Assembly: GCF_001708965.1 (NCBI RefSeq)
Contig: NZ_LVJW01000003.1
Coordinates: forward strand, 1,116,001-1,180,000
Reading direction: 5' to 3'
Length of the DNA: 64,000 nt
DNA from: Candidatus Thiodiazotropha endoloripes
GTDB taxonomy: Bacteria > Pseudomonadota > Gammaproteobacteria > Chromatiales > Chromatiaceae
Shown: positions 27,499 through 44,720 of the stretch, piece by piece
Position numbering within the stretch: position 1 is the first letter of the stretch
Layout of the letters: every line of letters begins with the position of its first letter
Position numbers and translations under genes: made by a program
The notes under the pieces: generated by a model
The model's input: the letters and a program-made list of their open reading frames with translations, nothing else
What the model was told of the DNA's origin: nothing
Databases searched by the model: none

Positions 27499-27528
27499 GG
27501 CCTATTGGATTAGTGTTAACAGGCCCTA
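27496..27528. repeat. 33-bp palindromic repeat that supplies the stop codons of two convergent genes
   Basis: TAGGGCCT (27496-27503) and AGGCCCTA (27521-27528) are perfect inverted arms around TTGGATTAGTGTTAA-type sequence. The left TAG ends nhaA; the right CTA, read on the minus strand, is the TAG of the ABC1 kinase gene. A nearly identical element lies at 51671-51703. It may act as a bidirectional hairpin but has no T-run. Confidence 0.8.
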
Positions 27529-28854: not shown

Positions 28855-28855
28855 G

Positions 28856-28876
28856 ACTCGTTTTAACAGCCCCTAG
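28856..28876. repeat. degenerate copy of the TTAACAGGCCCTAG repeat at a stop codon
   Basis: CTCGTTTTAACAGCCCCTAG matches TTCGTGTTAACAGGCCCTAG in 17 of 20 positions. It fills the gap between the two minus-strand genes, and its CTA (28873-28875) is the TAG stop of the upstream gene. Confidence 0.5.
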
Positions 28877-29835: not shown

Positions 29836-30033
29836 TGTCCTCTCCGGAGTTGAATGTCGGCCTATTCATAAGACAGTCGATCCGTGTGAAATGTCCCGGT
29901 TTTTATAGCAAAACCGGCTCAAGAGAGCATGGTGAAAATGTGGTAACTATCGGCTCTGTATTTAGCTGGCTTTTGCAAAAAATGGTACACTCCAATCAAT
30001 TAACTTCTTAGCGAATCGAGAAAAATAAGTGTG

Positions 30034-30489
30034 ATGGAAATTGGCAAGTCCGCACCCGCGTTTGAGCTTTACGATCAATCGGATAATTTGTATCGATTGA
30101 GTGATAGTCTGGGTGCCTGGGTGGTTCTGTTTTTTTATCCCAAGGATAATACGCCTGGGTGTACAGCTGAAGTCTGTGATTTCAATAGCGAATATGACCG
30201 CTTACTGGTTTTGGGGGTAAAGCTTTTCGGTATCAGCACGGACAGTCGTCGAAGTCATCAGAGGTTTGCTCAAAAACATCAATTGAAATTTCCTCTTTTA
30301 TCGGATCAGCAGGGAAAGGTTGCATCGGCTTATGAATCACTATTCAGGCTGGGACCTGTCAAAATCGCAAAAAGAGACAGCTTCATCATCAATCCTCAGG
30401 GTGAAATTGCAGCAATCTACAGAGGTGTACAAGCCAAAGGTCATGGACGGTTTATCCATGAAAAGATTCAGCAATTAATGGCAGACTGA
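30034..30489 (+). CDS. bcp: Bcp/PrxQ-type peroxiredoxin
   Basis: A 151-residue atypical 2-Cys peroxiredoxin that reduces hydrogen peroxide and organic peroxides with thioredoxin. The peroxidatic Cys lies in PKDNTPGCTAEVCDF, with the resolving Cys five residues later as in PrxQ, and the conserved FPLLSD and F.I.P.G blocks follow. ATG at 30034 (GTG at 30031 is equally possible). It is monocistronic, convergent with the next gene. Confidence 0.92.
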   Translation: MEIGKSAPAFELYDQSDNLYRLSDSLGAWVVLFFYPKDNTPGCTAEVCDFNSEYDRLLVLGVKLFGISTDSRRSHQRFAQKHQLKFPLLSDQQGKVASAYESLFRLGPVKIAKRDSFIINPQGEIAAIYRGVQAKGHGRFIHEKIQQLMAD

Positions 30490-30496
30490 TAATCTG

Positions 30497-31234
30497 TTAG
30501 GTAGATATTTGAAAGGTTATTTTCTGCTTGGTGAGTTGCTGTTGTAAATGTTCAAAAGCACCATCGATATCCCCATCTCCGCGCAAGCCGAGTTCTACGC
30601 GGCCCTGAGTGCCAAACTTGGGCAGGCTATACATTTTGAGATCCTGATATTCACGGTTGATAAGCTCCATCAGCGGGACTAAAGCACTTTCCGGAGTATT
30701 CAGTACCAACAGTGATCTTTGTTTAAAACGGCTCTCCTGTTGTGGATATTTTTGCCTCAATACCCACTCTGCCATGGGCCACGCCATCTCCGGGAACCCG
30801 GGGAGGAAATGGTGATAATTGATGGAAAAACCAGGAATTTGATTGTACGGATTAGGGATCAGTTCACAGCCCATTGGCAGATCGGCCATTTTGATGCGGG
30901 TAGGGTAGGCCGCCTCGCCAAACTGGGATTCGATCAACAGTTTCGCTTCAGGGTGTCGTTGAAGCGGGGTATCGAATGCCTCAGCAGCACAGCTGCGAGT
31001 TAGGTCATCGGGGGTGGCTCCGATGCCACCGCAGACGAATACGGGTAACTGCTCAGATATAGAGAATTGCAAATGTCTGATCAGACTCTCATGCTGATCA
31101 GGAATGAACCAGCACCTGTGGAGTAATTTGCCATATTTTTTAAGCAATGAGCGAAAATGGTCATGGTGACGATCCGCTCGGTCACCATACAAAATTTCAT
31201 CGCCAATCACTATCAGCCCAAAATATGAATTCAC
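30497..31234 (-). CDS. MoaB/CinA-like molybdopterin-binding domain protein
   Basis: A 245-residue protein with the MoCF_biosynth fold: GLIVIGDEILYGDRADRH, CGGIGATPDDLTRSCAAEAF (the T-P-D-D/L-T phosphate motif) and LPGFPEMAWPMAEWVL. This equals the N-terminal domain of CinA/competence-damage proteins without the amidase domain. Such stand-alone proteins have unclear roles; involvement in molybdenum cofactor or nucleotide pyrophosphate hydrolysis is possible. The 8-bp gap to bcp (convergent) leaves no room for separate terminators. Confidence 0.82.
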   Translation of the reverse strand: MNSYFGLIVIGDEILYGDRADRHHDHFRSLLKKYGKLLHRCWFIPDQHESLIRHLQFSISEQLPVFVCGGIGATPDDLTRSCAAEAFDTPLQRHPEAKLLIESQFGEAAYPTRIKMADLPMGCELIPNPYNQIPGFSINYHHFLPGFPEMAWPMAEWVLRQKYPQQESRFKQRSLLVLNTPESALVPLMELINREYQDLKMYSLPKFGTQGRVELGLRGDGDIDGAFEHLQQQLTKQKITFQIST

Positions 31235-31440
31235 GCGATACCTGCCGGTTGAGAAGTGTTATTTGATTTGGTAAATAGTGTCGGGACAACTGGATGGTTT
31301 TGTCTATGAGAATAGAGTGTCCCAGGAGCTGATCACCCAGCTGTCAGCGATTCCCAAGGGAAGCAAAATTGTGCACCAAACTGTCGCGATACAATAGCTT
31401 GGACTGATGCAGCAGCGTGATCACATATTTTGATCCACTA

Positions 31441-31890
31441 CTATTCTGAGAGTTGATTACGCAGTCTCTGAATCTCTAGTTGGGCTTGCTCAAGCTGAAG
31501 CTCTATTTCAACTTCCCGGGTAACATCCTTTTGTACACCAATATAGTAAGTCAGGCCGTCTTCTTCATTAATGATCGGAGTGATGCTCAGTTCATTCCAA
31601 AAAAGCGAACCATCTTTGTGGTAATTTCGCAACCTTGTTCGTGAAGGCTGATTGCTCTCTATGGCCTCGCGAATCGACTGACGAGCCCGTTGGTCCCGGT
31701 CGTCGCCCTGAAGGAAACGGCAATCCTGGTAGAGAATCTCCTCTTCTGCATAGCCGGTGAGTCTTTCAAAAGCCTCATTGACATAGAGAAGAATGGTATC
31801 ATCACCCTCGCGTTCAGCGATCACCAAGCCATCATTCGCAGTATCTATAGCTTGCTTGAGCAGTTGCAAACTGATTGGTAAATGCTTCAT
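31441..31890 (-). CDS. short LOV blue-light photoreceptor
   Basis: A 149-residue protein made of a single PAS/LOV domain with short N- and C-terminal helices (the C-terminal one, VEIELQLEQAQLEIQRLRNQL, is a coiled coil). The flavin-adduct motif is YQDCRFLQGDDRDQ with the reactive Cys near residue 57, and NYHKDGSLFWNELSITPI carries the FMN-contacting Asn residues. As I recall it, this is extremely close to Pseudomonas putida PpSB1-LOV (PplS), which has no effector domain and acts through a LitR-type regulator. ATG 31890 is preferred over an upstream TTG. A perfect palindrome lies upstream. The coding of a LitR homolog 12 kb away strengthens the functional assignment. Confidence 0.92.
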   Translation of the reverse strand: MKHLPISLQLLKQAIDTANDGLVIAEREGDDTILLYVNEAFERLTGYAEEEILYQDCRFLQGDDRDQRARQSIREAIESNQPSRTRLRNYHKDGSLFWNELSITPIINEEDGLTYYIGVQKDVTREVEIELQLEQAQLEIQRLRNQLSE

Positions 31891-31932
31891 ATTGTTCGAT
31901 CCCAACAGTCTTATGCTTTCTGGTTTTCAAGC

Positions 31933-31951
31933 CTGTATCAGTATGATACAG
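31933..31951. promoter_or_regulatory. perfect palindrome upstream of the LOV gene, probable operator
   Basis: CTGTATCA (31933-31940), GTA, TGATACAG (31944-31951): perfect 8-bp arms with a 3-bp centre, 43-61 bp upstream of the LOV start codon. The half-site TGTATCA differs from the TTGTACA sites of the nearby operons, so it may bind another regulator. Confidence 0.55.
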
Positions 31952-32228
31952 CGCCCTTTACATCTGATTCTACGACAACCATTGGGTTGATTGAAGGGGT
32001 TAATCAGCATGCAAGGGAATAATTTGTCTGAACCAATATGAGTTTGTTGGTCGTATCTGGTTGATGGGGTTGTTTGATTCAAACTCTATTTTCAGGCAAA
32101 CCACTGGAGCCGGCACCAGATGTTGCCAATAGAGGGCAACCGGATCGTTTGATTTAGTCTTACAGAATGTGGGTTTAGTTCAATTTCTGCGATCATTCAT
32201 ATCGGAATCCCTTTGTTCTTACCGGGGA

Positions 32229-32255
32229 TCCCGACATAATCGGTGAATACCGGGT
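32229..32255. repeat. REP-like 27-bp hairpin repeat, copy 2
   Basis: Matches the unit at 14088-14114 in 21 of 27 positions, including TCCCGACATA and GAAT..CCGGG. It lies 7 bp past the stop of the chalcone-isomerase-like gene. Confidence 0.45.
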
Positions 32256-32262
32256 TAATGAA

Positions 32263-32835
32263 TCAAGTTTGTCCTAACAGGCTAATTTTTAAGGATTTAT
32301 CAATGGGGTCCTTACCCAGCCAGATGTTCAGATAGGCCTCAGCGAGCAGTGGGTCATTGAGTGTGATGACTTCTGAATCATTAAACTCCAATACCAGACG
32401 GTTGTTATCCTTCAGGGTCAAAACGTATCGGTCACCCGGTTTAACATCCTGCATTGCATTGTGCAGTTGATCCAGGGCAGGACGCATACGCTCAAGTTTC
32501 TCTGGTCCTTGTTGTCTACGGATGAATGACTCTGCCACCTGCTTGATCTTAGTTGCTTTAATGGGTATTAGGTAGTGAATCACCAATCTCTGATCCTCTC
32601 GTTTCTCCTGTCGAGAGGTATAGAGAGCGGCTGCGTAGAGATCAACCAGGATTCCCCAGGTCAATATACCGGCTCCTGAGAGTTCGAACTGGTGGTTCTC
32701 AAAAGTATGACTCTGTGGAAAGTAGATATCTTTGATCTGGATGCCTTGTTTTGCATTGGCACTACCAGTGAGGATGAATGCCGAGATCAGCAATGTGTAT
32801 ATTGAGATTGATGTTAAAGTGTTGCGTCGATTCAT
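32263..32835 (-). CDS. periplasmic chalcone-isomerase-like protein
   Basis: A 190-residue secreted protein: signal peptide residues 1-28 (ISAFILTGSANA), then a chalcone isomerase-like fold (IKDIYFPQSHTFENHQFELSGAGILTW, VDLYAAALYTS, and the KATKIKQVAESFIRRQ helix). Bacterial members lack the plant active site and are thought to bind fatty acids or other lipids. It is the last gene of the six-gene minus-strand operon with cyclopropane synthase and amine oxidase, a recurring companion in light- or singlet-oxygen-induced loci. Confidence 0.85.
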   Translation of the reverse strand: MNRRNTLTSISIYTLLISAFILTGSANAKQGIQIKDIYFPQSHTFENHQFELSGAGILTWGILVDLYAAALYTSRQEKREDQRLVIHYLIPIKATKIKQVAESFIRRQQGPEKLERMRPALDQLHNAMQDVKPGDRYVLTLKDNNRLVLEFNDSEVITLNDPLLAEAYLNIWLGKDPIDKSLKISLLGQT

Positions 32836-32838
32836 GAT

Positions 32839-33369
32839 CTACTCCTTTCTGAAAAAGAGAATGACTTCACCAAGTTTGAAACCTAATTTTGTTACTACCG
32901 CTTTATTCATCATCGTGTTTCGGTCGAGCAGGAACATCCAGTCATTGAAGTGCACGCGCCAATCACTGCTACCAATTGTCAAGTCCATCTGGTACTGCCA
33001 CTGGAGTGCGCTGCCATAAGCCTCTCCATGTGCCATGCCAATGATGTCATTTGCACTCCCGGTATACTGGTGTTTGTCGATACGTGTTATGATCCAGGTT
33101 CGATGTTCAGTGGTTCCGTCATCATAGTTAAATGACTCCTCAAGTTTTAACTGGTCATTTTCTATTGTACCGATAATCGTGACCTGGAATCGTTTGCGAA
33201 GCTTGCCGAAACGATCGATAAAAACTCCCCAGGCCTGCTGTTCTCCCTCGAAAAAGTCAAATAGATCGAATTCAGGTAGTGTATCTGCGTAATCAACCGG
33301 TTTCATGTTTGAACAACCCAGGGTTATCAGTAACATAAGGCTTGCCAGCCAGACGTTTTTCAGATTCAT
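32839..33369 (-). CDS. DUF3833 family lipoprotein
   Basis: A 176-residue lipoprotein: hydrophobic signal LASLMLLITLGC with the lipobox Cys near residue 19, then the DUF3833 domain (FDLFDFFEGEQQAWGVFIDRFGKL, MHW-like WRVHFNDWMFLLDRNTMMNKA). The beta-rich lipocalin-like pattern suggests lipid binding at the membrane. It is 3 bp upstream of the chalcone-isomerase-like gene. Its start overlaps the end of the MFS gene by 77 bp, an unusually long overlap. Confidence 0.85.
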   Translation of the reverse strand: MNLKNVWLASLMLLITLGCSNMKPVDYADTLPEFDLFDFFEGEQQAWGVFIDRFGKLRKRFQVTIIGTIENDQLKLEESFNYDDGTTEHRTWIITRIDKHQYTGSANDIIGMAHGEAYGSALQWQYQMDLTIGSSDWRVHFNDWMFLLDRNTMMNKAVVTKLGFKLGEVILFFRKE

Positions 33370-34657
33370 TGCCTGCTTCGCTCCTTTGTATGATCGAGAG
33401 TTGGCGACTGTCTAATGGAAAATGCCAAACCAGCCAGGCGGCAGTAAGTTTGAATGGTATCGGTAGAAGACCGTAAGCCAAGGCGAGGACTGTGATGCCC
33501 ATTGTAGAGGGTAGGGCCGGATCAAAACCACTTAACTGAACCAATGGATAGACAAGGCCAATGGCCAAAGCCAAAGAGAGTTTGGTTGCCATTCCCCATA
33601 GACCGAAAAAAAGACCTGCCCGTTCACCGCCTCCACCAGCCCGGTCGATATCGATCACATCGGCCTGGATCGCGGCTGGTATTGACATATCAATGCCCAA
33701 ACTGAGTCCGGTTAACAGGCAGATCAATGCAAAAAGGTAGAAGTCCCCGGGTGTCAGCCAGGGTACCCATATGAAAACTGAACAAGAGAAAAGCATGGCA
33801 ACAGACCAGGCGATATGTTTTTGCACATGCCTGGCAAGTGGTAACCAAATCAATAGCCCTATTACCCCGGAGGCGAAGTAGATACCAAGCAATATCCATC
33901 GGCTTTCATCCACCTGAAGGACATACTCGACATAGAGTAAGAAAAGAGATGCCGGTATCGCATTGGCAATTCCGTTCAACAGGTAGGCAATCAGCAGTTT
34001 TTTTAAGGGTTTGTTTTTAGCTAGTAGATTGTAACCTTCCTTGAATCCGGTTCTTCTCATTGTTGATGTTAAGTCTGGAACCAACATAAGTCCTGGCATG
34101 GAGATTATGAATAAGGTGATGAAAACCAGACCGATCAATGCGAGTATCTCGCTATCCTTCAGGGTATTGAGTAGAAAGGGTAAAGATACAACCGTAATTG
34201 TGCCTGCAAGAACGTATATTTCCCGCACGGATGTGATTTGTGATCTTCGATGGTAGTCCGTTGAGAGTTCTGCGCCCCATGCATTATAAGGTATGACCAC
34301 CCACGACCATCCTGTATAGAGTAGAGCCGACCAAACCAGCAAATAGAGGCCGCCAGGTGTAGCGTTGGGAATGAACAGCATGTAGCATGAAACCAGTAGT
34401 AATGGGGATCCACTGTAGATCATCAATCGCCTGCGTCCCGGCCTGGTCAGAATCCTGTCACCGAGATATCCTGCAATCGGATCCGAAAAAAGATCCCAAA
34501 AGCGGGAGATCATCAACAGAAGACCTACCGCAGTCAGCCCAAGACCGAACTCTTCTGCGTAAATCGGTGGCAGAAATACAACCAGAGGCAATCCGAGAAA
34601 TGCCAACGGCAATCCAGGTAGGCCATACAGGTATATTTGCTTGCCTCTGAACTTCAT
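33293..34657 (-). CDS. MFS transporter of the MFS_2/GPH (MelB-like) type
   Basis: A 454-residue, 12-helix inner-membrane carrier. Family signs are GLGLTAVGLLLMISRFWDLFSDPIAG, GDRILTRPGRRR and YNAWGAELS, as in the melibiose/glucuronide carrier branch and MFSD2-like lipid transporters. Substrate unknown; the operon of lipid-modifying genes suggests a lipid or lysophospholipid. The last about 25 residues overlap the DUF3833 signal sequence in another frame. It starts 4 bp after the synthase gene ends. Confidence 0.88.
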   Translation of the reverse strand: MKFRGKQIYLYGLPGLPLAFLGLPLVVFLPPIYAEEFGLGLTAVGLLLMISRFWDLFSDPIAGYLGDRILTRPGRRRLMIYSGSPLLLVSCYMLFIPNATPGGLYLLVWSALLYTGWSWVVIPYNAWGAELSTDYHRRSQITSVREIYVLAGTITVVSLPFLLNTLKDSEILALIGLVFITLFIISMPGLMLVPDLTSTMRRTGFKEGYNLLAKNKPLKKLLIAYLLNGIANAIPASLFLLYVEYVLQVDESRWILLGIYFASGVIGLLIWLPLARHVQKHIAWSVAMLFSCSVFIWVPWLTPGDFYLFALICLLTGLSLGIDMSIPAAIQADVIDIDRAGGGGERAGLFFGLWGMATKLSLALAIGLVYPLVQLSGFDPALPSTMGITVLALAYGLLPIPFKLTAAWLVWHFPLDSRQLSIIQRSEAGNESEKRLAGKPYVTDNPGLFKHETG

Positions 34658-34661
34658 CGCA

Positions 34662-35876
34662 TTAGAGGAGTTTGCGTAGTAAAATCTGGTGCAGGTTTAG
34701 TCGTTTTATTAAAAAACCCGCTTCACAGTAACTTAGGTAGTATTGCCACATTCTGATGAATTGTGGATCAAAACCTTGAGCGAACACTTTATCTTTAGCC
34801 TGATTGAAGTTGAGCTGCCATTTTTCCAGGGTTTTCGCATAGTCGAGTCCAAAACTGTCATCTTCTACCAATTCGAACCGGTGTTTCTCCGCAAGTGATT
34901 TTAATCGCGAGACCGCTGGTAACATACCGCCTGGAAAGATGTATCGCTGTATGAAGTCAGGTTTCTTTCGGTAACTGGTGTAAGCCTCTTCACTAATGGT
35001 AATGACTTGTAAAGCAGCAGTTCCGTTTGTCTTCAGGAGCGTACTGAGTTTGCCGAAGTACTCGTCCCAGTAAGCTTCGCCAACCGCTTCGAACATTTCG
35101 ATTGATACGACATGGTCATATTGACCGCTGAGGTCACGATAGTCTGTCAGTTTCAATTCAACTGATTCAGCCAGACCCTGACGCTGGATACGACGATTGG
35201 CCCATTCAAGTTGCGCTGGTGAAAGACTGACACCATCCACTTTGATCTGGTTTGCCGCTGCCATTTCGGCAAATCCACCCCAGCCGCAACCGATCTCCAG
35301 CACAGAGGCGCCGACTTTAGGTTGTATAAGATCCAGTATCCTTTGGTATTTATGCTGTTGTGCCTGCTCAAGTGTGTCTTGTTCACTGTGAAACAGACCA
35401 CAGGAGTAGGTCATCCCCGTATCAAGCCAGAGCCGGTAGAACTCATTACCCAGATCATAGTGAGCCTCGATGTTCCTGCTGCTTCCCTGGCGGGTATTAC
35501 GGTTTGACCAGTGATGGATCCGGTTTGCCAGATTGGAGAGTCGTGAGGCTCTGCGCAGCCTGGTGAAACGATGTCTGTTTTCACCCAGTAGCACCAACAG
35601 CGTGGTCAGATCCGGCGTATCCCACTCTTCAGCCATATAGGATTCCGCAAAACCAAGATCCCCTTTGGTGTAGAGTCGTTTGATAAACGCGGTAAAATTC
35701 CGAATATTGATCCGTGCGGTATTGCCTGGCACTTTGCCATTCAGGATAAACAGATGCCCGTTGGTCTCAATTTCCAATGTTCCCTGTTCGAGGCAATCCA
35801 GTCGACTGAGAAAATCATCGAGTACGCCTTTGTAGAGATTTAAGCGCTCTATGCTTTGAGTCTGAAGTGTGCTCAT
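34662..35876 (-). CDS. cfa: cyclopropane-fatty-acyl-phospholipid synthase-like SAM methyltransferase
   Basis: A 404-residue SAM-dependent methyltransferase of the CFA synthase family: YDLGNEFYRLWLD.GMTYSCG, the SAM loop VLEIGCGWGGFAEMAA, SIEMFEAVGE and RYIFPGGMLP. Family enzymes methylate unsaturated acyl chains of phospholipids; close relatives in singlet-oxygen regulons make furan fatty acid precursors instead of cyclopropanes. The ATG at 35876 overlaps the upstream stop (ATGA), so translation is coupled to the DUF1365 gene. Which product it makes here is not decided by sequence. Confidence 0.9.
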   Translation of the reverse strand: MSTLQTQSIERLNLYKGVLDDFLSRLDCLEQGTLEIETNGHLFILNGKVPGNTARINIRNFTAFIKRLYTKGDLGFAESYMAEEWDTPDLTTLLVLLGENRHRFTRLRRASRLSNLANRIHHWSNRNTRQGSSRNIEAHYDLGNEFYRLWLDTGMTYSCGLFHSEQDTLEQAQQHKYQRILDLIQPKVGASVLEIGCGWGGFAEMAAANQIKVDGVSLSPAQLEWANRRIQRQGLAESVELKLTDYRDLSGQYDHVVSIEMFEAVGEAYWDEYFGKLSTLLKTNGTAALQVITISEEAYTSYRKKPDFIQRYIFPGGMLPAVSRLKSLAEKHRFELVEDDSFGLDYAKTLEKWQLNFNQAKDKVFAQGFDPQFIRMWQYYLSYCEAGFLIKRLNLHQILLRKLL

Positions 35877-36655
35877 ATGGATATTTGCTCCTTCGGCGGT
35901 TTGGGCTTTGGAAAAAATTTTGCTCCACGAAGCCAAATCTTCAATGCCTGCCAGTGGATGGCAAGCACGACTTTAAAGGTCATCAGTGGGGTTCTAACCA
36001 ATGCATATAGCAATCGACTGTCTATCAAGGGGTATGAGTAGCCAGCCTGGCTTGCGGTAAGCATCAAGCGATCATTTTGATATTCACGAATTACCACACC
36101 AATACGTTTGCCCGGTTTATGAAAAGAAAAATGGTATTCACCATTCATACTGATCAGAGGGGATACGTGAAACTGCTTCTTTTTGGTGGCATTCACCGGC
36201 CAGCTGAGTTTGTCTCCCTGATTATGAATCAGATAAAAATGGTGCTCCTTAAAGGTATTGTTTACTTCACAAATCAGCGCTTTCAAGCTGCCGTCACTGT
36301 GGTAGCAGTACCATATCGAGATTGGGTTGAATGCATAACCCAATATACGTGGAAAACAGAGCAGCTTAATGGAGCCATTTCCGATATCGATATTCTGGGA
36401 AGCCAGCAGTTGTGTTGCCCAATTCTTTAAACAACTGCCATCCCTCGGTCCATGATCCTTTCGATTAAAGGAGAGAAGATTGAAACGGTCGAGTGAGAGC
36501 AGTGACAAACTCCGGCACTCCTCATCAATCCGGTTGAGGTCGATAAGCAGACTGAATACCGGGTATGAAAAAAGGTAGTTCACAGGAAAAAACCGTTGAT
36601 GCATCACTTGGGTTAAGTAGATTCTACTCTGTCGGTCACACATCAGATCAGACAC
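35873..36655 (-). CDS. DUF1365 domain protein
   Basis: A 260-residue DUF1365 protein (HQRFFPVNYLFSYPVFSLLIDL, LLCFPRILGYAFNPISIWYCY, EVNNTFKEHHFYL, KQFHVSPLISMNGEYHFSF). Function is not established, but it almost always lies between an FAD amine oxidase and a CFA-like synthase, so it is presumably part of the same lipid modification. It overlaps the amine oxidase gene by 8 bp and the synthase gene by 4 bp. Confidence 0.9.
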   Translation of the reverse strand: MSDLMCDRQSRIYLTQVMHQRFFPVNYLFSYPVFSLLIDLNRIDEECRSLSLLSLDRFNLLSFNRKDHGPRDGSCLKNWATQLLASQNIDIGNGSIKLLCFPRILGYAFNPISIWYCYHSDGSLKALICEVNNTFKEHHFYLIHNQGDKLSWPVNATKKKQFHVSPLISMNGEYHFSFHKPGKRIGVVIREYQNDRLMLTASQAGYSYPLIDSRLLYALVRTPLMTFKVVLAIHWQALKIWLRGAKFFPKPKPPKEQISI

Positions 36656-38000
36656 CCACGCTTCTGGCCAACGATGCGAGCTGATCCATGTCGGGTTGCA
36701 GAGTGATTGCCTGAGTCTGCTTCAACCATGGCACCTCAACTCCCAGACTGGCAGCGACTTCAACAGAGGATCTCAAGGCATCTTCATGAAAACCGTAGCC
36801 AAGGTAACTACCGCAATACCAAATTCTCTGTTTTCCTTGAATCTCATTCAGCTGCTGTTGTGCCCACATGGCGCCATGATCGAATACAGGATGTTGATAG
36901 ACCATCTTCTCGATCAGTTGCTCTTCCTGGGGAGGCTGAAGCGGATTCAATGAGACAAAATAGTCTTTTTCAGCTTTCAGGCGTTGCAATCGGTTCATCC
37001 AGTAACTGACAGAGACAGCTCGCTCTTGTGTTTCAAGCTCATCATCAGCGATATAGTTCCAGGAGGACCAGACATCACGTAATCTGGGCATCAGTCCTCT
37101 ATCGGTATGCAGATAGACTGTGTTGTCCTGATATCTGAATTTACCCAAACAATCCGCTTCGAGTGGATTAGGATTCTCGATCAGTGCAACGGCCTGGTCG
37201 GCATGGCTGGCGATAATCAGAGCGTCGTAGCTTTCTTTGTGACCCGATTTCGTAGTGATTTCCACACCACTGGATGTACGTCTTACCGAAGCCACAGATT
37301 GATTGATTTTAATGCGGCTACCCAATGAGTTAGCCATTACCTTTACATACTGCCAGCTACCGCCTACCAATGTTTTCCACTGTGGTCGATTCTTGAGTTT
37401 GACCAAACCATGATTTTTGAAAAACTGAGCGAAGCTGCTGAATGGAAATGAGAGCATCGTACTGGTCGGGCATGACCATATTGCCGCAGCCATTGGCAGC
37501 AGGTAGTTATAGCGAAACTGATGGTTGTAACCATTCAGGTCGAGAAAATCCCCAAGACTGATACTGTAGTCACCTTGGTGAAGGTGGTTCTGACACTGGT
37601 TATTGAAACGTACTATCTCTTTGATCATTGATAAAAACTGAAAATCAAACAGATTTTGTCTCTGGGCAAACAGCTTCTTCAGGTTGTCACCGGCATATTC
37701 CAGAGAGCCGGAATCGATTGAAACGGCAAACGACATATCAGTGTTTTGGGTTTCAACATCGAGGGAATCCAGCAACGCTGTAAGCAGGGGGTAGTTGGGT
37801 TCGTTGTAGACAATGAAGCCTGTGTCAATTGGAATCATGCCACTCCCTTCCAACACCTCGATCGTGTGCGTGTGACCGCCTACATAATCGTTCTGTTCAT
37901 ACAGATCCACCTGATATCTGTTTTTAAGCAGCCAGGCTGCACTCAAGCCTGCTATACCACTACCCACAATCCCGATTCGTTTTATATCGTTTTGTTTCAC
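36648..38000 (-). CDS. FAD-dependent amine oxidase/desaturase-like flavoprotein
   Basis: A 450-residue flavoprotein with the FAD-binding loop IGIVGSGIAGLSAAWLL, YEQNDYVGGHTHTIEV and the C-terminal WYCGSYLGYGFHEDALRSS of the NAD(P)-binding/amine oxidase family. Rhodobacter homologs in the sigma-E/ChrR singlet-oxygen operon act as a desaturase in furan fatty acid synthesis (recalled from the literature). It is the first gene of the six-gene operon; its promoter region (38001-38198) carries four TGTA(C/T)A sites. Confidence 0.9.
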   Translation of the reverse strand: MKQNDIKRIGIVGSGIAGLSAAWLLKNRYQVDLYEQNDYVGGHTHTIEVLEGSGMIPIDTGFIVYNEPNYPLLTALLDSLDVETQNTDMSFAVSIDSGSLEYAGDNLKKLFAQRQNLFDFQFLSMIKEIVRFNNQCQNHLHQGDYSISLGDFLDLNGYNHQFRYNYLLPMAAAIWSCPTSTMLSFPFSSFAQFFKNHGLVKLKNRPQWKTLVGGSWQYVKVMANSLGSRIKINQSVASVRRTSSGVEITTKSGHKESYDALIIASHADQAVALIENPNPLEADCLGKFRYQDNTVYLHTDRGLMPRLRDVWSSWNYIADDELETQERAVSVSYWMNRLQRLKAEKDYFVSLNPLQPPQEEQLIEKMVYQHPVFDHGAMWAQQQLNEIQGKQRIWYCGSYLGYGFHEDALRSSVEVAASLGVEVPWLKQTQAITLQPDMDQLASLARSVGV

Positions 38001-38034
38001 AGTAAATTCCCACAGATCGATTTATCTGTAATAT

Positions 38035-38088
38035 TTGTACAAAGATGTACAAATAACAACTATAATAATTGTACAATGACAATGTATA
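38035..38088. promoter_or_regulatory. divergent promoter region with four TGTA(C/T)A sites (proposed LitR-type operators)
   Basis: TGTACA occurs at 38036-38041, 38046-38051 and 38070-38075, and TGTATA at 38083-38088. The first two form TTGTACA-N4-TGTACAA (38035-38052). For the rightward gene, TTGTAC (38035-38040) and a consensus TATAAT (38061-38066) are 20 bp apart, the long spacer of MerR-regulated promoters. The leftward operon start lies 35 bp from the first site. Confidence 0.7.
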
Positions 38089-38198
38089 TTTTGGGTTTAT
38101 TCATGTGATAAGTAGATAAAGTAATAAAAAACAATACGATAGAACTTAGGTGGGAATTTAAGATGTGGCTGTCAAAACTGATACAAAAGGTATGATTT

Positions 38199-38975
38199 AT
38201 GGTGCATCCCTTAAACGATGAACAGAGTACAGCTCCCGTAGCCTGGATCACCGGGGGTGGTAGCGGTATCGGTAGATCTCTCGCTCACGCTTTGAGTGAC
38301 ATGGATTGGACTGTAGTGATTTCCGGCCGTAATCGGGAGAAGTTGATCAAAACCTTAGAATCCGGAGGTAAACAGCCGATACGGCAGATAGCGCTGGATG
38401 TAACCGATGCTCAATCCGTCAGTGGTGCGATTGGCGAGATCGAGCGAGAGTACGGAAGAATAGATTATGCATTTCTGAATGCGGGTGATTACTCACCAAT
38501 GAGATTGAATGATTTCGACCCACTGCTGTTCCACAGGCTCAACGATGTCAACTATCTCGGTGTGGTCAACTGTCTGGCAGCGCTGTTACCTGGTATGAAA
38601 GAACGTGCTCAGGGACAGATTCTGATAACAGCCAGTCTATCCGGATATTGTGGATTGCCTGGTGCTGCGCCCTACAGCGCCACTAAGGCTGCATTGATCA
38701 ATCTGGCTGAGTCTTTACAGCCGGAGCTGTCACAGTTGGGAATTCGTATCCGCTTGATCAACCCTGGATTTGTGGCTACAGATCTTACGCATAAGAACGA
38801 TTTCAAAATGCCGTTTTTGATTACCCCGGCAATGGCTGCCAATGAGATTAAAGATCAGCTTATGTCAAACCGTTTTGAAATCCGCTTTCCTGCCACATTT
38901 TCATGGATTATGAAAGCACTCAGTTGGATGCCTTACAGAGTCTATTTTGCACTGATGCGGAGATTGCTCAAATGA
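38199..38975 (+). CDS. short-chain dehydrogenase/reductase
   Basis: A 258-residue classical SDR: WITGGGSGIGRSLAHAL cofactor loop, LNAGD, catalytic Ser in ITASLSGYCGLPG, and YSATKAA. Ends in a hydrophobic segment (FSWIMKALSWMPYRVYFALM), possibly membrane-associating. Substrate unknown; the shared operator region with the lipid-modifying operon suggests an acyl-derived carbonyl or alcohol. It is coupled by a 4-bp overlap to the next gene. Confidence 0.88.
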   Translation: MVHPLNDEQSTAPVAWITGGGSGIGRSLAHALSDMDWTVVISGRNREKLIKTLESGGKQPIRQIALDVTDAQSVSGAIGEIEREYGRIDYAFLNAGDYSPMRLNDFDPLLFHRLNDVNYLGVVNCLAALLPGMKERAQGQILITASLSGYCGLPGAAPYSATKAALINLAESLQPELSQLGIRIRLINPGFVATDLTHKNDFKMPFLITPAMAANEIKDQLMSNRFEIRFPATFSWIMKALSWMPYRVYFALMRRLLK

Positions 38976-39409
38976 GTGAGATTGGACAATGGTTGTCTCG
39001 ATACAGCGATCTTTTTGAAACGCTGGACAAAGCCAAGCTTGAACAGTTTGATCAAGTGTTCAATCATCAGGTTCATTTCAAGGATCCGTTTAATGATGTT
39101 ACGGGCATCGAATCAGTAAAGCGGGTATTCCGGCATATGTTCAATGTTTGCGACTCCTGTCAGTTTGAAGTCGGTGACCGTTGCGGCAGTGGATATCAGG
39201 GTTTTATGCACTGGAAGTTTCACTACACCATGAAGGGTAGCAGTAAGAGCCGTATCATCGTTGGTATCAGTCAGGTTAGATTCAATCCTCTGGGTGAGGT
39301 AATTGAACATATCGACTATTGGGATTCAGCTGAATATATCTATGAAAAACTCCCGCTGCTTGGTGGCTTGCTGAGTTGGATTCGTAAGCGCTACCTGCAG
39401 GCCGTTTAA
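38972..39409 (+). CDS. NTF2/SnoaL-like small protein
   Basis: A 145-residue protein of the NTF2-like fold: helix LSRYSDLFETLDKAKLEQFDQVF, then VHFKDPFNDVTGIESVKRVFRHMF and the sheet HWKFHYTMKGSSKSRIIVGISQVRF, HIDYWDSAEYIYEKLP. Homologs next to SDR/CFA-type genes are annotated as nuclear transport factor 2 family and probably form a small-ligand pocket. ATG 38972 overlaps the SDR stop (ATGA), setting the start. Confidence 0.85.
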   Translation: MSEIGQWLSRYSDLFETLDKAKLEQFDQVFNHQVHFKDPFNDVTGIESVKRVFRHMFNVCDSCQFEVGDRCGSGYQGFMHWKFHYTMKGSSKSRIIVGISQVRFNPLGEVIEHIDYWDSAEYIYEKLPLLGGLLSWIRKRYLQAV

Positions 39410-39500
39410 ACGGGAGGGGGATTGGTACTTATAGTTTGATCAATTCCAACTAGAATTAAAACAGTGCCAACAATAATCCTGAAGACCAGTGGGGCGGCCA

Positions 39501-40007
39501 ATGCACCAATCAAGAGTTTCCATGCTACAGGGTATGCCGATCTTTGGTGGTGTCAGTGAGAGCACCTTGGATCTGTTAATCAACAAGGCTTCCATCATAG
39601 AGGTAGAAAAAGAGCAATATTTTTTTCAGGAGGGAGACCTGGATAACTCAATCTATATCCTGGAGCAGGGAAGGGTGGCGGTTTACCGAACCTGGCAGGA
39701 GCGGCTCTATATGCTCAGAACCCTGGAAACAGGTGACTGCTTTGGTGAAATGGCCCTGATGGATTGCAAGCCCCGCAGTGCCGCAGTTCAGGCACTGGAG
39801 AGTTGTCAGGCGATCCAGATCAAGGCGGCGCAACTGGCAGAACTCTACGGTCTCGATCATGAGCAGTATCTGATGATCTATATGAATCTTGGACGCGAGG
39901 TCTGTCGACGGTTAAGTGAGGCGGATCACCGCCTGTTCATAAACCGTTTTTCACTTGATGCGGGTGACCAAGGCCAAGCCGATCAGGCCCAGTGCCATCA
40001 ACAGTAG
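39501..40007 (+). CDS. single cyclic-nucleotide-binding-domain protein
   Basis: A 168-residue protein consisting of a cNMP-binding/Crp-type beta barrel (FFQEGDLDNSIYILEQGRVAVYR, GDCFGEMALMDCKPRSAAVQA) with a C-terminal helix, and no helix-turn-helix. The GEMALMD...RSA phosphate-binding cassette is well conserved, so nucleotide binding is likely. Role unknown. The start could be ATG 39501 or the GTG 12 bp earlier. Its last 57 bp overlap the degraded gene on the other strand. Confidence 0.75.
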   Translation: MHQSRVSMLQGMPIFGGVSESTLDLLINKASIIEVEKEQYFFQEGDLDNSIYILEQGRVAVYRTWQERLYMLRTLETGDCFGEMALMDCKPRSAAVQALESCQAIQIKAAQLAELYGLDHEQYLMIYMNLGREVCRRLSEADHRLFINRFSLDAGDQGQADQAQCHQQ

Positions 40008-40273
40008 AGAGAGTGGCTGGAGCAACTGGTTATTACTCTCGTAACGGAAAAAGGTCATACAACCGTTCTCCATCTGATAGGGGCTTGAACAAGGATTTGT
40101 CACTTCGCTTGTGAGCAAAACTGTGTCAGACGCAGTCAGAGAGAGGCTCTCTTCAAGCAGCAACCTGGAGAGTTGAGATGAACCATCTACAGGCAATAAA
40201 CCAGAATACTCGCATGAATTGCAGTAGAGCTGATAAAAACAATCAATAGCAGTAATTTTATAAAGCGGTTCAT
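39951..40273 (-). pseudogene. frameshifted gene for a small secreted protein with C-terminal membrane anchor
   Basis: The minus-strand ATG at 40273 encodes a good signal peptide, MNRFIKLLLLIVFISSTAIH then AS, but stops at 40187. One reading frame over, the sequence is open from about 40250 to 39951 and encodes PVDGSSQLSRLLLEESLSLT and, at the end, PLSLLLMALGLIGLALVTRI-K, a hydrophobic anchor with a basic tail. A single-base change near 40190-40230 would join them into a protein of about 105 residues. Either it is a pseudogene, or there is a sequencing error. The C-terminus resembles sorting-signal tails but lacks a PEP motif. Confidence 0.5.
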
Positions 40274-40635
40274 CTGAAACTGCTTGGCAACACGAAAGAT
40301 TTTTGATTGGAATGCCCCAGTATCATTGTGCAATTAGAATGCCATTAAAATAATTCTCTTATAATCAATCACCTGAGATTTAAGTGCTTAGATAATACTA
40401 ACGCTGTGTAAAGTATCCCGACGCTTTCGATCCTCAATGGTTACCAGCTCTGATCGTGAAATGGCCCATGAGAAGCAGTGATTCGTTCACTTTTCGTGAT
40501 CCCGTGATGAGCAGAATAGATCGCCTTCTATCGATTAATTTGATTCGTGTTAACAGGCCCTAGCGAGAACTGTGGTGATTGGCTTCCAATTCTGACCTAT
40601 CACTCTCACTTCATGGCAAACCACAAACTGGGATC
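40274..40635. other. 362-bp intergenic region
   Basis: No ORF is supported. It contains a copy of the TTAACAGGCCCTAG repeat at 40541-40563, about 75 bp past the stop of the DUF523/DUF1722 gene. Confidence 0.5.
40541..40563. repeat. copy of the GTGTTAACAGGCCCTAG repeat
   Basis: Identical over 23 bases to 46627-46649. Here it is not used as a stop codon. The left inverted arm seen in the 27496 and 51671 copies is absent. Confidence 0.75.
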
Positions 40636-41598
40636 CTAGATCAAATTACGCAGACCAAGTTTCTCAGGGTGGGGTTGCAGATAGATCTGTCTGGACATGT
40701 AGTTGTCCGGGTGTAATCGAAAATAGTGTTTCAGCAGTGTCATTGGCACCACCAATGGGGTTTCCATGCGTCGATAGGCCTCTATACAGGAGACAAGCTC
40801 ACTCTTGTCATCCGTGTTGATGCGTTTTTTTAAGTAACCCATAATATGTTGCAGCACATTGACATGACGGCTGCGGGTGACCCGACGTTTTAGGGTCTGC
40901 ATCAAGGCTTCAATGTAGGTGGCAGCGATCTGGTCCAGCTCCTCATCGGCAAGATTTGAGAGCAGTCGTCCCAGTCTCTGGTAAGCGGCTTGAGAGTGTG
41001 CCATCACCAGATATTTATGGTTGGTGTGAAAATCGATCAGTTTTGCGGCAGATAAGCCCTGCTGTCGAAGTAGTTGCCAGCGATGGTAGACAAAGATGCG
41101 GTTGATGAAGTTCTCCCGCAGTACCGGATCGTTGAGTCGGCCCTCTTCTTCTACCGGCAAGTAGGGAAGTTTTTCCATTAAAAGCTTGGCGAAGATCCCG
41201 CTGCCTTTACGCTCTGCGTGGGTGCCCTGTTCTGAAAACACCTTAACCCGAGACATGCCGCAGCTCGGGGAGTTCTTTTTCAGAATATAGCCACACAAAT
41301 GGTCCAGCCTTTCGGTTTGCTGCAGGGTGTATCTCTGCATCTGCCGGGTAAAATCCTGACTTGGATCCGCGACTCCAACCAGGCGGGGTTTGTCTGGATC
41401 ACCGATCAGTCTGATCGTCGGGCGGGGTACTCCCAGGCCAATGCCGGTCTCCGGGCAGAGTGGATGATACTCGACATGTTCCTGAAGTATCTCGGCAATA
41501 AATCGATCTCGTTTGTGGCCACCGTCATAGCGCACCTGGTGTCCCAACAGACAGGCACTGAGACCGATGATCGGTTTTGTTGTATCAGATTGGTTCAT
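40636..41598 (-). CDS. DUF523 and DUF1722 domain protein (YbgA-like)
   Basis: A 320-residue protein with DUF523 (residues 8-150: GLSACLLGHQVRYDGGHKRD, CPETGIGLGVPRPTIRL, KKNSPSCGMSRVKVF) and DUF1722/YbgA (155-310: FINRIFVYHRWQLLRQQ, HTNHKYLVMAHSQAAYQRLG, YRRMETPLVVPMTLLKHYF). Conserved Cys residues in SPSCGMSRVK suggest a metal or cluster. In many bacteria it is encoded next to photolyase, as here, but its activity is unknown. The ATG at 41598 overlaps the photolyase stop by one base (TGATG). Confidence 0.88.
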   Translation of the reverse strand: MNQSDTTKPIIGLSACLLGHQVRYDGGHKRDRFIAEILQEHVEYHPLCPETGIGLGVPRPTIRLIGDPDKPRLVGVADPSQDFTRQMQRYTLQQTERLDHLCGYILKKNSPSCGMSRVKVFSEQGTHAERKGSGIFAKLLMEKLPYLPVEEEGRLNDPVLRENFINRIFVYHRWQLLRQQGLSAAKLIDFHTNHKYLVMAHSQAAYQRLGRLLSNLADEELDQIAATYIEALMQTLKRRVTRSRHVNVLQHIMGYLKKRINTDDKSELVSCIEAYRRMETPLVVPMTLLKHYFRLHPDNYMSRQIYLQPHPEKLGLRNLI

Positions 41599-43073
41599 CA
41601 CTTAGTACCAGCTTTGTTGGAGTGACGCTTGACAATCTCCCAGCGTTTCAGTGCCTCTTTTCTCGAACTCTGCAAGTCGACTATGGGAATTGGATAGGTA
41701 TTGCCCAGCTTTATCCCCGCCTTGAACAGCTCGCTCGTTTTTGCCATCCAGGGTGCATACAGACGCTTAGTGGGCAAAGCTGACAATTCCGGCAACCAAT
41801 GTTTGATGTAGTCACCACTGGGATCGAAGCGTTCTGCCTGTCTTACCGGGTTGAAAATGCGGAAGTAGGGTGCTGCGTCTGCACCACAGCCAGCACTCCA
41901 TTGCCATCCCAGGCTGTTATTGGCCAGGTCTGCATCAATCAGCGTATCCCAAAACCAACGTGCACCTTCTAACCAGTGTATGCCCATATTTTTACTCAGT
42001 AGGGAAGCGACAATCATGCGCACCCGGTTGTGCATCCAGCCGGTTTGCCACAGTTCCCGCATACCCGCATCCACAATGGGTATACCGGTTTGTCCCCGCT
42101 GCCATTGTTGAAGCAGGTTTTTGGCTTGCTTGTCTGAGCGCCAAGGGTAGTCAGTAAACCGGGAATCGAAGGGTAATCGGTCGGTGTTGGGGTTGTTTTT
42201 CAATAGATCGATGGCAAATTCACGCCAAGCCAATTGGCGGAGATATTGACTGGCTCCGTCATTGTTGGCATGTACCGGTGTACCGCCAAATCGTGCCGTT
42301 ATGCCGTTGGCTATCTGTACCGGGCTGATCTCGCCGAAATGAAGATGGGCAGATAGACGGGATGTCTCAGATAGGTCAGGCCTGTCCCTGCCGGTATGAT
42401 AACCACTGACCCTCTGTTGCAGAAATCCATGCAGCTTCTTCAATGCCCCCACTTCACCGGGCTGCCAGTGATCGTCAAACCCTCGATGCCAGGGAGTGCT
42501 TGGCAGGAGTTTCAGTCTGTCTATGTCCAGGGAGTCTACCTGATCAGGTTGCGGAGGCAGGGATTTTGGTGCTGGATGGGGAGACCGGTTTAACATGCCC
42601 TGTTTCTGCAGCGCCCGCCAGAAGGGTGTAAAGACCCGGTAACTGCCTCCATCGAGTCGTCGGATCGAGTTACCGTCCGACAGCTGTGAGGCGTGAAACT
42701 GATGACAGCTGACACCGGCTTTGGTTAGCTCGCGGCAGACCCGGGCATCCCGTTCTATCGATGCAGGCTCGGGTATATGGGTGAAAAACAGATGTTGGCA
42801 TCGATGTTTCATTGCCAACTTGCGTATCACCAGACGGCTCGATCCTTTGGCGATGATCAATCCGGATCCCAGCTTGCGTAGATCCCTATCCAGGGCTATC
42901 AGGCTGTTATGCAGCCACCAGTTGGATGCTGCACCAGGACGCCAGGGTTGATCCTCGTCTGGTGCATGGATATAGATCGGCAGTAGATGTTTCGCATCAC
43001 GGATAGCAGCCAGCAGAGCAGGGTGGTCGGTCAACCTCAGATCCCGTCTGAACCAGAGGATGGACCGGGTCAT
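41598..43073 (-). CDS. phr: deoxyribodipyrimidine photolyase
   Basis: A 491-residue cryptochrome/photolyase family enzyme that uses FAD and light to split cyclobutane pyrimidine dimers. The N-terminal antenna domain starts ILWFRRDLRLTDHPALLAA. The FAD-binding C-terminal domain has WREFAIDLL, DAGMRELWQTGWMHNRVRM and WQWSAGCGADAAPYFRIFNP, with the dimer-binding Trp/Asn positions of CPD photolyases. It is the second gene of the merR-phr-DUF523/1722 operon, with 2 bp between the MerR stop and its start codon. Confidence 0.94.
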   Translation of the reverse strand: MTRSILWFRRDLRLTDHPALLAAIRDAKHLLPIYIHAPDEDQPWRPGAASNWWLHNSLIALDRDLRKLGSGLIIAKGSSRLVIRKLAMKHRCQHLFFTHIPEPASIERDARVCRELTKAGVSCHQFHASQLSDGNSIRRLDGGSYRVFTPFWRALQKQGMLNRSPHPAPKSLPPQPDQVDSLDIDRLKLLPSTPWHRGFDDHWQPGEVGALKKLHGFLQQRVSGYHTGRDRPDLSETSRLSAHLHFGEISPVQIANGITARFGGTPVHANNDGASQYLRQLAWREFAIDLLKNNPNTDRLPFDSRFTDYPWRSDKQAKNLLQQWQRGQTGIPIVDAGMRELWQTGWMHNRVRMIVASLLSKNMGIHWLEGARWFWDTLIDADLANNSLGWQWSAGCGADAAPYFRIFNPVRQAERFDPSGDYIKHWLPELSALPTKRLYAPWMAKTSELFKAGIKLGNTYPIPIVDLQSSRKEALKRWEIVKRHSNKAGTK

Positions 43074-43075
43074 GA

Positions 43076-44002
43076 TCAGCGACCTATTGTCAATCTGTCA
43101 TCTATTTGAACCACTGCCGCAGCCAAGTCCACCGCCAGTGGTATTGCGCCCGCTTGTAAAATCTCCGCTTGATGGGTCTGTGTGATGGCACCGCCGACAA
43201 ATACCGGCTCGTTCACCTTCTGCACCAAAGCAGGCAGGTGACTCTGCAACAGAGCCATCGGTGGTTCCAAGCTGCCGAAAAGGAGCAAGGCTTCACTGTG
43301 GGAGCGGTTGATGGTCATTGGCAGAAGTTCCAGACTCAAATCCGGACCCAATAAAACAGGTCTGTATCCCTGGGTCATCGCTTTCAGGCTGAACAGCAGA
43401 AGTTCCACTTCACTGTATTCGTTCGGCAGACAGGCCCCCAGCAGTCGTCTGCCCCGGGTTTGAGTGGACTGGTGATGAAAGCGTGCGCCGAGTTTGTTGC
43501 GCAGGTAGGTATGAAAGAAGCGGCTTTCCACCTCTGCCAAAGGCTGACTGCTACGCCTTTGGTGCAGCTCGTGGAGCATGGGTTGTAACAGCAGACGGGT
43601 TACCAGCTCGATTGGATAGAGAGAGAGCGCCTCATTGTAGTTGCCATCAAGGGCGTTCTCATCGAATTCGGCAATCGCCTGCAGCATCCTGCTGCGATAG
43701 GTTTCCCATACATCACTCTCTTTCACCTGGGTTGAATCCACACCTTGCAGGTGGGCGCCATTGCCTGAGAGCCGGTTCTTGACCTGACCGATCGAGATAC
43801 CCTGATCGATAAAGTCCATGATCCGCCGGATCAGCTGGATATGTTCATCGGTATAGAGACGATGTCCCTTGGGTGTTCTCTCCGGTTTAATCAGACCATA
43901 GCGTCTTTCCCAGGCACGCAGCGTTACTGGATTGATGCCGGTCAGCTCGGAGACCTTACGAATCGGGTAAAAACCGTTTTTATTTGAGGGTTGTTCTTTC
44001 AT
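43076..44002 (-). CDS. LitR/CarH-type MerR regulator lacking the cobalamin-ligand histidine
   Basis: A 308-residue regulator. Residues 10-78 are a MerR winged helix (IRKVSELTGINPVTLRAWER, GHRLYTDEHIQLIRRI). Residues 95-175 are a helical bundle and 185-300 a Rossmann-like B12-binding-type domain (LLFSLKAMTQGYRPVLLGPDL, FVGGAITQTH). The stretch GACLPNEYSEVELLL occupies the place of the CarH/LitR motif E-x-H-E, with Ser where the cobalt-binding His should be (residues 194-200). It therefore probably cannot use adenosylcobalamin as a light sensor, like the class of LitR proteins that work with a LOV partner. It heads the photolyase operon and likely regulates itself through the sites at 44036-44052. 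Confidence 0.88.
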   Translation of the reverse strand: MKEQPSNKNGFYPIRKVSELTGINPVTLRAWERRYGLIKPERTPKGHRLYTDEHIQLIRRIMDFIDQGISIGQVKNRLSGNGAHLQGVDSTQVKESDVWETYRSRMLQAIAEFDENALDGNYNEALSLYPIELVTRLLLQPMLHELHQRRSSQPLAEVESRFFHTYLRNKLGARFHHQSTQTRGRRLLGACLPNEYSEVELLLFSLKAMTQGYRPVLLGPDLSLELLPMTINRSHSEALLLFGSLEPPMALLQSHLPALVQKVNEPVFVGGAITQTHQAEILQAGAIPLAVDLAAAVVQIDDRLTIGR

Positions 44003-44035
44003 GAACCTGCATGAACCTGATCGAAAAGTTAAAAC

Positions 44036-44073
44036 TTATACATAGTGTACAATAATATTCAGAAATTTGTACT
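44036..44073 (-). promoter_or_regulatory. TTATACA-N3-TGTACAA operator-like site upstream of the MerR gene
   Basis: TATACA (44037-44042) and TGTACA (44046-44051) form an imperfect palindrome TTATACAT-A-GTGTACAA; a further TTGTACT lies at 44067-44073. The site is 34-50 bp upstream of the MerR start codon and also upstream of the divergent hemoglobin gene. It resembles the sites at 24226 and 38035. Confidence 0.6.
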
Positions 44074-44330
44074 TTAAGAATTACCCTGTGATTGAGTGGC
44101 TTTTATTACCATTCAGCTCCAGTCAGAGCTCCAGGGCAAGTTCGGTGATAGTGCTGAAAATCGCTGAGTTTTTTTGTGAAATCAGTGTGGTAAAGGTGTT
44201 AAAAGAGGAAATAATATTTTCATCGATTGATTATTCTGCTTGAGGCAGGGTACCAATTCTGTTTTATTTGCCGACTCAATCGATCAGATTGATATTCACT
44301 GTTCGGCTTTATTATCGGGTATCGAAGATC

Positions 44331-44720
44331 ATGCAACCTGCGGCAACACATTATGAAAGACTCGGGGGCGAAAAATCGGTACGTGAACTGGTCGATCGCT
44401 TCTATGACCTGATGGATGATCAGGACGAACTGACTGAATTACGCCAGCTGCATGCAAAAAGTCTCAAGGTCTCTCGGGAGAAGTTGTTTATGTTTCTCTC
44501 AGGCTGGTTGGGTGGACCATCTCTGTATACTGATAAGTATGGTCATCCAAGGCTCAGAGCGCGTCATCTTCCCTTCAGTATCGGCATCGAAGAGCGGGAC
44601 CAATGGATGCAATGTATGAAGAGAGCCATGCAGCAGATGTCACTGGATGAGTCACTGCAGGAGGAGTTGCTTCAGGCTTTTTTTAAAACAGCGGATTTCA
44701 TGCGTAACCGGGAAGATTGA
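44331..44720 (+). CDS. group II truncated hemoglobin
   Basis: A 129-residue 2-on-2 globin (HYERLGGEKSVRELVDRFYDLM, FLSGWLGGPSLY, KYGHPRLRARHLPFSIG with the proximal His, and ERDQWMQCMKRAMQQ with the group II Trp at G8). Such proteins bind oxygen and nitric oxide and are linked to oxidative or nitrosative protection. ATG 44331 gives the usual length; an upstream start would add 21 non-globin residues. Divergent from the MerR regulator with 328 bp between them. Confidence 0.92.
   Translation: MQPAATHYERLGGEKSVRELVDRFYDLMDDQDELTELRQLHAKSLKVSREKLFMFLSGWLGGPSLYTDKYGHPRLRARHLPFSIGIEERDQWMQCMKRAMQQMSLDESLQEELLQAFFKTADFMRNRED

Follow-up and report, generated by a model that had tools for sequence, protein, structure and literature searches.

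A short LOV photoreceptor and a B12-less LitR regulator in a putative blue-light regulon of Candidatus Thiodiazotropha endoloripes

Does a gene cluster that holds both a short LOV protein and a LitR-type regulator of the MerR family encode a single light circuit, and which genes would such a circuit control? The question is raised by a 64 kb stretch (the window) of the 4.46 Mb genome of Candidatus Thiodiazotropha endoloripes, in which the two regulatory genes frame, at positions 31441-44073, operons for predicted enzymes of DNA repair and membrane lipid modification. The original prediction for this DNA was that LOV and LitR form a light circuit over DNA repair and lipid protection; it is supported here by the homology to the PmSB-LOV/PmlR2 pair of Pseudomonas mendocina, the loss of the vitamin B12 site in the regulator, the co-occurrence of the two proteins and the presence of operator-like sites. 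Given that the window has homologues of the P. mendocina parts, the same circuit is the best explanation, and we consider it quite probable, from sequence comparison, that the locus is a self-contained blue-light regulon in which LOV and a B12-less LitR act over repair and membrane-lipid genes.

The mechanism has been described in Pseudomonas. According to the available text of a study of P. mendocina (PMC9758184), blue-lit PmSB-LOV binds the helix-turn-helix (HTH) part of PmlR2 in a light-dependent manner, blocks the binding of PmlR2 to DNA in BIAcore assays, and releases a light-inducible promoter in vitro; in light, phrB and ufaM increase 25-33-fold, and the LOV gene is constitutive. This 2022 paper cites a 2020 study of P. 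putida for the LOV-LitR idea, again as far as its available text goes. The idea of a LOV-LitR light circuit is already published, and what differs here is the gathering of its parts into one locus. A literature search returned no openly accessible paper joining Thiodiazotropha with a photolyase or a photoreceptor.

Photoreceptor and regulator

The LOV gene lies on the minus strand at 31441-31890. In the list of open reading frames it starts with a TTG at 31905; the start is better placed at the ATG at 31890, which gives a protein of 149 aa, because an in-frame TAG is found just 5' of this ATG in three of the four congeners with LOV. The product is, as first described, a stand-alone protein (149-154 aa) consisting of a PAS/LOV domain with short caps and without an effector domain. 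Residues 11-141 align with the blue-light receptor PpSB1-LOV with 82 identities in 131 positions (E 1e-53), and the stretch YQDCRFLQGDDRDQ, which includes the photoactive Cys, is the same in both proteins. A tree groups 19 short LOVs, the window protein and PpSB1 included, in one clade (95/92), all of them with the DCRFLQ motif; the nine rows outside this clade carry NCRFL (five), DCRYLQ (one) or no match to the motif pattern (three). LOVs 92-95% identical to that of the window occur in Candidatus Thiodiazotropha and related metagenome-assembled genomes, the named loci being those of the Stewartia floridana symbiont, T. sp. 'RUGA', T. taylori and Chromatiales MAG.232; the NCBI taxonomy places Candidatus Thiodiazotropha in the Sedimenticolaceae, Chromatiales. 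A family-level search at E 1e-25 reached more distant LOV domains as well, for example in a 169-aa frame of genome G046, matching at 35%; this frame is not of the PpSB type by score, and the genome carries a His-bearing LitR. Searching the genome of the window returned one PpSB-type LOV and one B12-less LitR.

The LitR gene (43076-44002, minus strand) is the first of the order litR-phrB-rudS, in agreement with the earlier description of a LitR/CarH-like MerR protein in an operon with photolyase. The best solved relatives of its product in the PDB are CarH/LitR proteins, aligned over residues 8-279, and it comprises a MerR HTH and a LitR/CarH-like C-terminal part. At the columns of the CarH residues W, E, H and H, which we take to be the B12-contact residues, the window protein has R, S, R and S, so all four positions are changed. 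In an alignment of 60 rows, WEHH is present in all 45 His-bearing rows (Thermus included) and the remaining 15 are without the last His; the class I LitR/CarH motifs W-x9-EH and E/DxHxxG, looked for in the alignment of the window LitR, are absent. The six genus members with a LitR of the window type have RSRS in five cases and RNRS in one (G102).

The LitR tree has 59 rows, and the 15 B12-less LitRs in it share a single clade (95/92), nested within the 43 His-bearing rows and Thermus. The Pseudomonas PplR/PmlR sequences stand outside this tree, a partial LitR of G069 (L033) is in the alignment and was omitted from the tree, a second G069 fragment (L035) is in neither, G157 contributes two rows, and the LOV and His labels were entered by hand. 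All LitRs of LOV-bearing genomes that the tree includes (G000, G102, G103, G104, G114, G275, G315, G384 and G476) fall inside the B12-less clade. An independent loss of B12 binding within the genus had been considered, and was abandoned because all 15 B12-less LitRs share one clade. By alignment and tree, the window regulator belongs to class II LitR.

The association of the two proteins was followed in a genus sample of 22 genomes and a class sample of 369 genomes. In the class sample the thresholds were E 1e-40 for LitR and E 1e-42 for LOV, with at most 10 LOV candidates per genome scored after a first look; a recheck in which all candidates were scored covered 13 of the 38 class genomes that have LitR and were negative for LOV. 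Within the genus, LOV was found in 5/22 genomes, and all five have a LitR at least 91.9% identical to that of the window (92-100%), a LitR present in 6/22 (Fisher p 2e-4, uncorrected for relatedness). From rnfG to rhodanese, G104 and G114 have the same gene order as the window, and so do G102 and G103 in the parts that were fetched. A close ufaO was detected in only four of the 22, because ufaD, ufaO and ufaM of G103 fall in a gap between two contigs, and ten of the 22 have none of LOV, LitR and DUF1365 at the thresholds used.

In the class sample, LOV was found in 13/369 genomes and LitR in 43/369. None of the 33 genomes with a His-bearing LitR has LOV, which is present in five of the ten with a B12-less LitR (Fisher p 2.6e-4, uncorrected for relatedness); DCRFLQ short LOVs are in this way tied to B12-less LitRs class-wide. 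Eight of the 13 LOV-bearing genomes had appeared to be without LitR, a reading that was rejected since a diverged LitR-like MerR protein, below the E 1e-40 threshold, lies beside LOV in five of them. A LitR-like MerR protein is then present in 10/13, five by the E 1e-40 search and five beside LOV (G167, G305, G271, G381 and G474). The co-occurrence of short LOV and His-less LitR, earlier suggested as a check, is seen in both samples, and within the genus LOV is not consistently absent from relatives with the rest of the cluster, an absence earlier named as evidence against the prediction: it is present in five of the six genomes with the window-type LitR.

Two side observations concern this association. 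In Guyparkeria (L009, L142), SDR-NTF2 genes are present and a strongly diverged LitR-like MerR gene lies immediately 5' of the short LOV gene. The genomes with a B12-less LitR in which no PpSB-type LOV was found are G207, G259, G327, G235 and G434 (L176-L180); ufa, SDR or RudS genes are present in the fetched stretch of three of them.

Operator-like sites and predicted targets

The 64 kb were scanned for pairs of TGTACA-type half-sites, 8-21 bp apart. Four pairs were found, at three promoters: 24227 (spacing 9), 38036 (10), 38070 (13) and 44037 (9). In 500 dinucleotide shuffles the mean was 0.15 pairs and none reached four, a test that is partly post hoc because the spacing range was chosen after the promoters had been inspected by eye; some independent support for the pairs comes from congeners and from other genera. 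Within the window, the largest cluster of half-sites lies in P1 (38036-38088), the region between the divergent ufaD and SDR genes, with TGTACA-N4-TGTACA at 38036-38051, TGTACA at 38070 and TGTATA at 38083. P2 (44037-44073), 5' of litR, has half-sites in common with P1 and includes TATACA-N3-TGTACA at 44037-44051 and TGTACT at 44068. P3 (24227-24241) is a TGTACA-N3-TGTACA sequence ~240 bases 5' of the rnfG-gpx genes.

Exact TGTACA-N3-TGTACA and exact TGTACA-N4-TGTACA each occur once in the genome, at P3 and at P1, respectively; with one mismatch allowed there are six places per pattern, near the five for a reversed control. Conserved blocks are seen in congeners at P1 (four genomes aligned, and also in G103) and at P2 (six genomes aligned), and the half-site pair of P2 is identical in the six genomes. 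Both half-sites of P3 are kept, with changes, in G104 and G114. The region upstream of the LOV gene in the window has no half-site pair, which fits the constitutive expression of LOV in P. mendocina. Outside the genus, 14 further genomes, namely those with LOV and/or a B12-less LitR, were scanned, and pairs stand before ufaD, SDR, rudS or litR in seven (G315, G167, G305, G207, G327, G434 and G275, the last with the N12 form). No pairs were found in two genomes with a His-bearing LitR (G128 and G242) nor in the three LOV-only stretches scanned.

All the genes that had been named at 31.4-44.0 kb were found in place and matched the expected families. Downstream of litR on the minus strand lie phrB (41598-43073), a DNA photolyase of the PhrB type, and rudS (40636-41601), which encodes a RudS-like protein with a TudS-type 2-thiouracil desulfurase domain and DUF1722. 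RudS is a tRNA 4-thiouridine (s4U) desulfidase placed by its authors in LitR/photolyase light operons, according to the available text (PMC11417400). Rightward from P1, on the plus strand, are an SDR oxidoreductase (38199-38975) and a SnoaL/NTF2-like protein (38903-39409). Leftward, on the minus strand, the ufa operon begins with a UfaD-like protein of the FAD amine-oxidase family (36648-38000), followed by a UfaO-like DUF1365 protein, a furan-forming oxygenase by homology (35873-36655), a UfaM-like SAM-dependent fatty-acyl methylase of the CMAS family (34662-35936), an MFS_2 transporter (33293-34657), a DUF3833 protein (32839-33369) and, as the last gene, a chalcone-isomerase-like protein (Chalcone_3; 32263-32835). 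UfaO contains DUF1365, as stated in the available text on the Rhodobacter sphaeroides pathway (PMC7380195), so homologues of all three furan enzymes are present, and the earlier suggestion of furan fatty acids is strengthened by the finding of UfaM, UfaD and UfaO together, by protein family and gene order.

The predicted regulon likely extends beyond 31441-44073 to rnfG-gpx at 24480-25750. These plus-strand genes encode an RnfG/RsxG-like protein (24480-25214) and a glutathione peroxidase family protein (gpx; 25211-25750), the rnfG-like gene overlapping the gpx gene. We regard gpx as a likely regulon member because it recurs beside ufaD, in six clusters of a second version described below, and near LitR, in G242 and G040.

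Other features of the window include a protein at 39489-40007 (plus strand) in which a cyclic-nucleotide (cNMP)-binding domain is the sole domain recognised, with no output domain; it is 92-97% conserved and syntenic in congeners. A bacterial-like globin (44268-44720) is divergent from litR and may share P2 with it; its upstream block is conserved across six aligned genomes. Between nhaA and an ABC1-kinase-like gene there is a short dispersed repeat (~27485-27538) with dozens of matches in G063, and the match of G063 contig C1 to the window stops at this repeat. An Rfam scan at the gathering threshold and a tRNA scan of the whole window gave no matches.

The proposed circuit and alternative explanations

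In the circuit that we propose, class II LitR would in the dark bind paired TTGTACA half-sites and thereby repress its own operon, litR-phrB-rudS, as well as rnfG-gpx and the divergent operons of ufaDOM and SDR. Under blue light, a flavin-cysteine adduct would form in the constitutively made LOV dimer, and the lit LOV would bind the HTH domain of LitR and take LitR off the DNA. Once induced, PhrB would repair UV dimers, RudS would lower the near-UV-sensitive 4-thiouridine in tRNA, UfaM, UfaD and UfaO would turn membrane acyl chains into furan fatty acids, and the glutathione peroxidase would reduce peroxides. This scheme predicts a response to light, binding of LitR by LOV, occupancy of the operators, and the enzyme and lipid products.

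Several observations weigh against the proposed circuit. The published operator T(G/A)TACA-N12-TGTA(C/T)A, with up to two mismatches, gave 5 matches versus 4.06 expected in the window, none at P1-P3, and the spacing in the window is 9-10 (also 13) versus 18 in Pseudomonas. Seven of the 14 further genomes have no pairs in the stretches scanned (G384, G476, G259 and G235, and the Guyparkeria-type G271, G381 and G474), and the second half-site of P3 is altered in G063, contrary to expectation. In P. mendocina itself, a gel shift gave a LOV-PmlR2-DNA complex in light, which conflicts with the BIAcore result (PMC9758184, available text). In the LOV-bearing genomes G336, G357 and G452, LitR was not found at E 1e-40 nor in the fetched stretches of 19.9, 13.7 and 12.8 kb, and no PpSB-type LOV was found in 5/10 class-sample genomes with a B12-less LitR. 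The six genus members with the second version of the cluster have no LOV at E 1e-20, and so present an enzyme cluster without LOV and with another regulator. Finally, G063 keeps a LitR 99.7% identical to that of the window together with phrB and rudS, but searches of this genome for LOV and, at E 1e-20, for ufaO gave no match. On its contigs C24 and C1 the similarity to the window begins only at base 74, and window positions ~27500-40560 are unmatched except for short or weak pieces (40/189 candidates scored, plus the LOV and ufaO searches); a deletion and an assembly gap look alike here, because both contigs end where the ~13 kb are missing.

Three other explanations were weighed. The shared fold family, and the fact that CarH proteins are the best PDB matches, could suggest that the window regulator still senses light through adenosylcobalamin like class I CarH/LitR; this is extremely improbable, given the change of all four B12-contact positions in the six genus members. 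B12 is also dispensable for the PplR response in P. putida, according to the available text of PMC9758184. The retention of LitR in G063 without a detectable LOV, and the five of ten B12-less LitR genomes in the same situation, are what would be expected if LitR controlled these operons through a non-LOV signal, such as another photoreceptor or a redox cue, and LOV acted elsewhere. We consider this unlikely, since all nine LOV-bearing genomes in the LitR tree have a B12-less LitR, in G167, G305 and Guyparkeria the LOV gene adjoins a LitR-like MerR gene or lies within ~1 kb of it, and direct LOV-LitR binding is described for P. mendocina in the same text.

The remaining explanation divides the locus, so that the lipid operon would answer singlet oxygen via sigma-E/ChrR, as in Rhodobacter, and LOV-LitR would control photolyase only. 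It draws on the rise of furan fatty acids in chrR mutants of R. sphaeroides, as given in the available part of the source; against it, the largest cluster of half-sites in the window lies between ufaD and SDR and has half-sites in common with the litR promoter region, and we find this division highly doubtful. A scan of 20 proteins at 28.9-46.4 kb found no ChrR, and no genome-wide search for ChrR/sigma-E was made.

Two putative light sensors in one genus and likeness to known systems

Besides the LOV-LitR cluster, the genus has a second version, in which 6/22 members (G007 and G096-G100; L183-L188) carry a diverged enzyme set with UfaO at 38-42%, gpx in divergent orientation, and a MerR protein at the cluster end. 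The B12 motifs W...EH and ExHxxG are present in this MerR protein in all six, as read from the sequences. The UfaM match of G099 comes in two pieces, and G096 and G099 have an extra His-bearing LitR beside a photolyase gene. The two putative sensor types were never found together in the 22 genomes: LOV with a B12-less LitR occurs in five, and in part in G063 as well, and the LitR-like MerR protein with the B12 motif in six. Judging from these gene contents, we lean slightly towards a natural exchange of photoreceptors in this single genus of sulfur-oxidising clam symbionts, where a fixed photoprotective output module (ufaD-ufaO-ufaM, the chalcone-isomerase-like, MFS, DUF3833, SDR and NTF2 proteins, with glutathione peroxidase) may be wired to either light sensor, and bacteria whose habitat is the inside of sediment-dwelling clams or the vicinity of seagrass roots may have kept the ability to sense light.

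The two versions would make flavin-based and B12-based light sensing comparable on the same outputs within one genus. The locus would extend the LOV-LitR mechanism from Pseudomonas to the sulfur-oxidising Chromatiales, in a compact form that suits the testing of a whole circuit. A further question is when a clam symbiont would be exposed to light, the organism of the window being a relative of clam symbionts. Two additions to the known system would be gpx as a predicted target and the exchange between sensor types within the genus.

The likeness to known systems is of several kinds. With the class I adenosylcobalamin-dependent CarH/LitR proteins of Thermus and Myxococcus, which are light-relieved repressors, the window regulator shares the MerR HTH and a similar overall sequence, and photolyase stands beside litR in several of the fetched His-bearing homologues as it does in the window; it differs from them at all four B12-contact positions. 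The window has the same three enzyme families as the R. sphaeroides furan pathway ufaM-ufaD-ufaO, matched by family and order without direct alignment to the Rhodobacter proteins, and has the D-O-M order of R. palustris RPA2571-2569; in R. sphaeroides the pathway is tied to ChrR, whereas in the window it is flanked by LitR-type half-sites (PMC7380195, available text). As in the RudS systems, a TudS-DUF1722 fusion lies beside phrB and litR (PMC11417400, available text). The closest parallels are PmSB-LOV/PmlR2, together with the pmlR1 region, and PpSB-LOV/PplR1-3, with a LOV of the same clade, a B12-less LitR and TGTACA-type half-sites; their targets phrB, SDR, FAD oxidoreductase and ufaM are also present in the window (PMC9758184, available text). 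Unlike these Pseudomonas systems, the window has rnfG-gpx as a predicted target and shows no fol genes in the scan of 20 proteins, and its LOV, LitR and enzymes, with one LOV and one LitR, are gathered in a single locus of ~13 kb.

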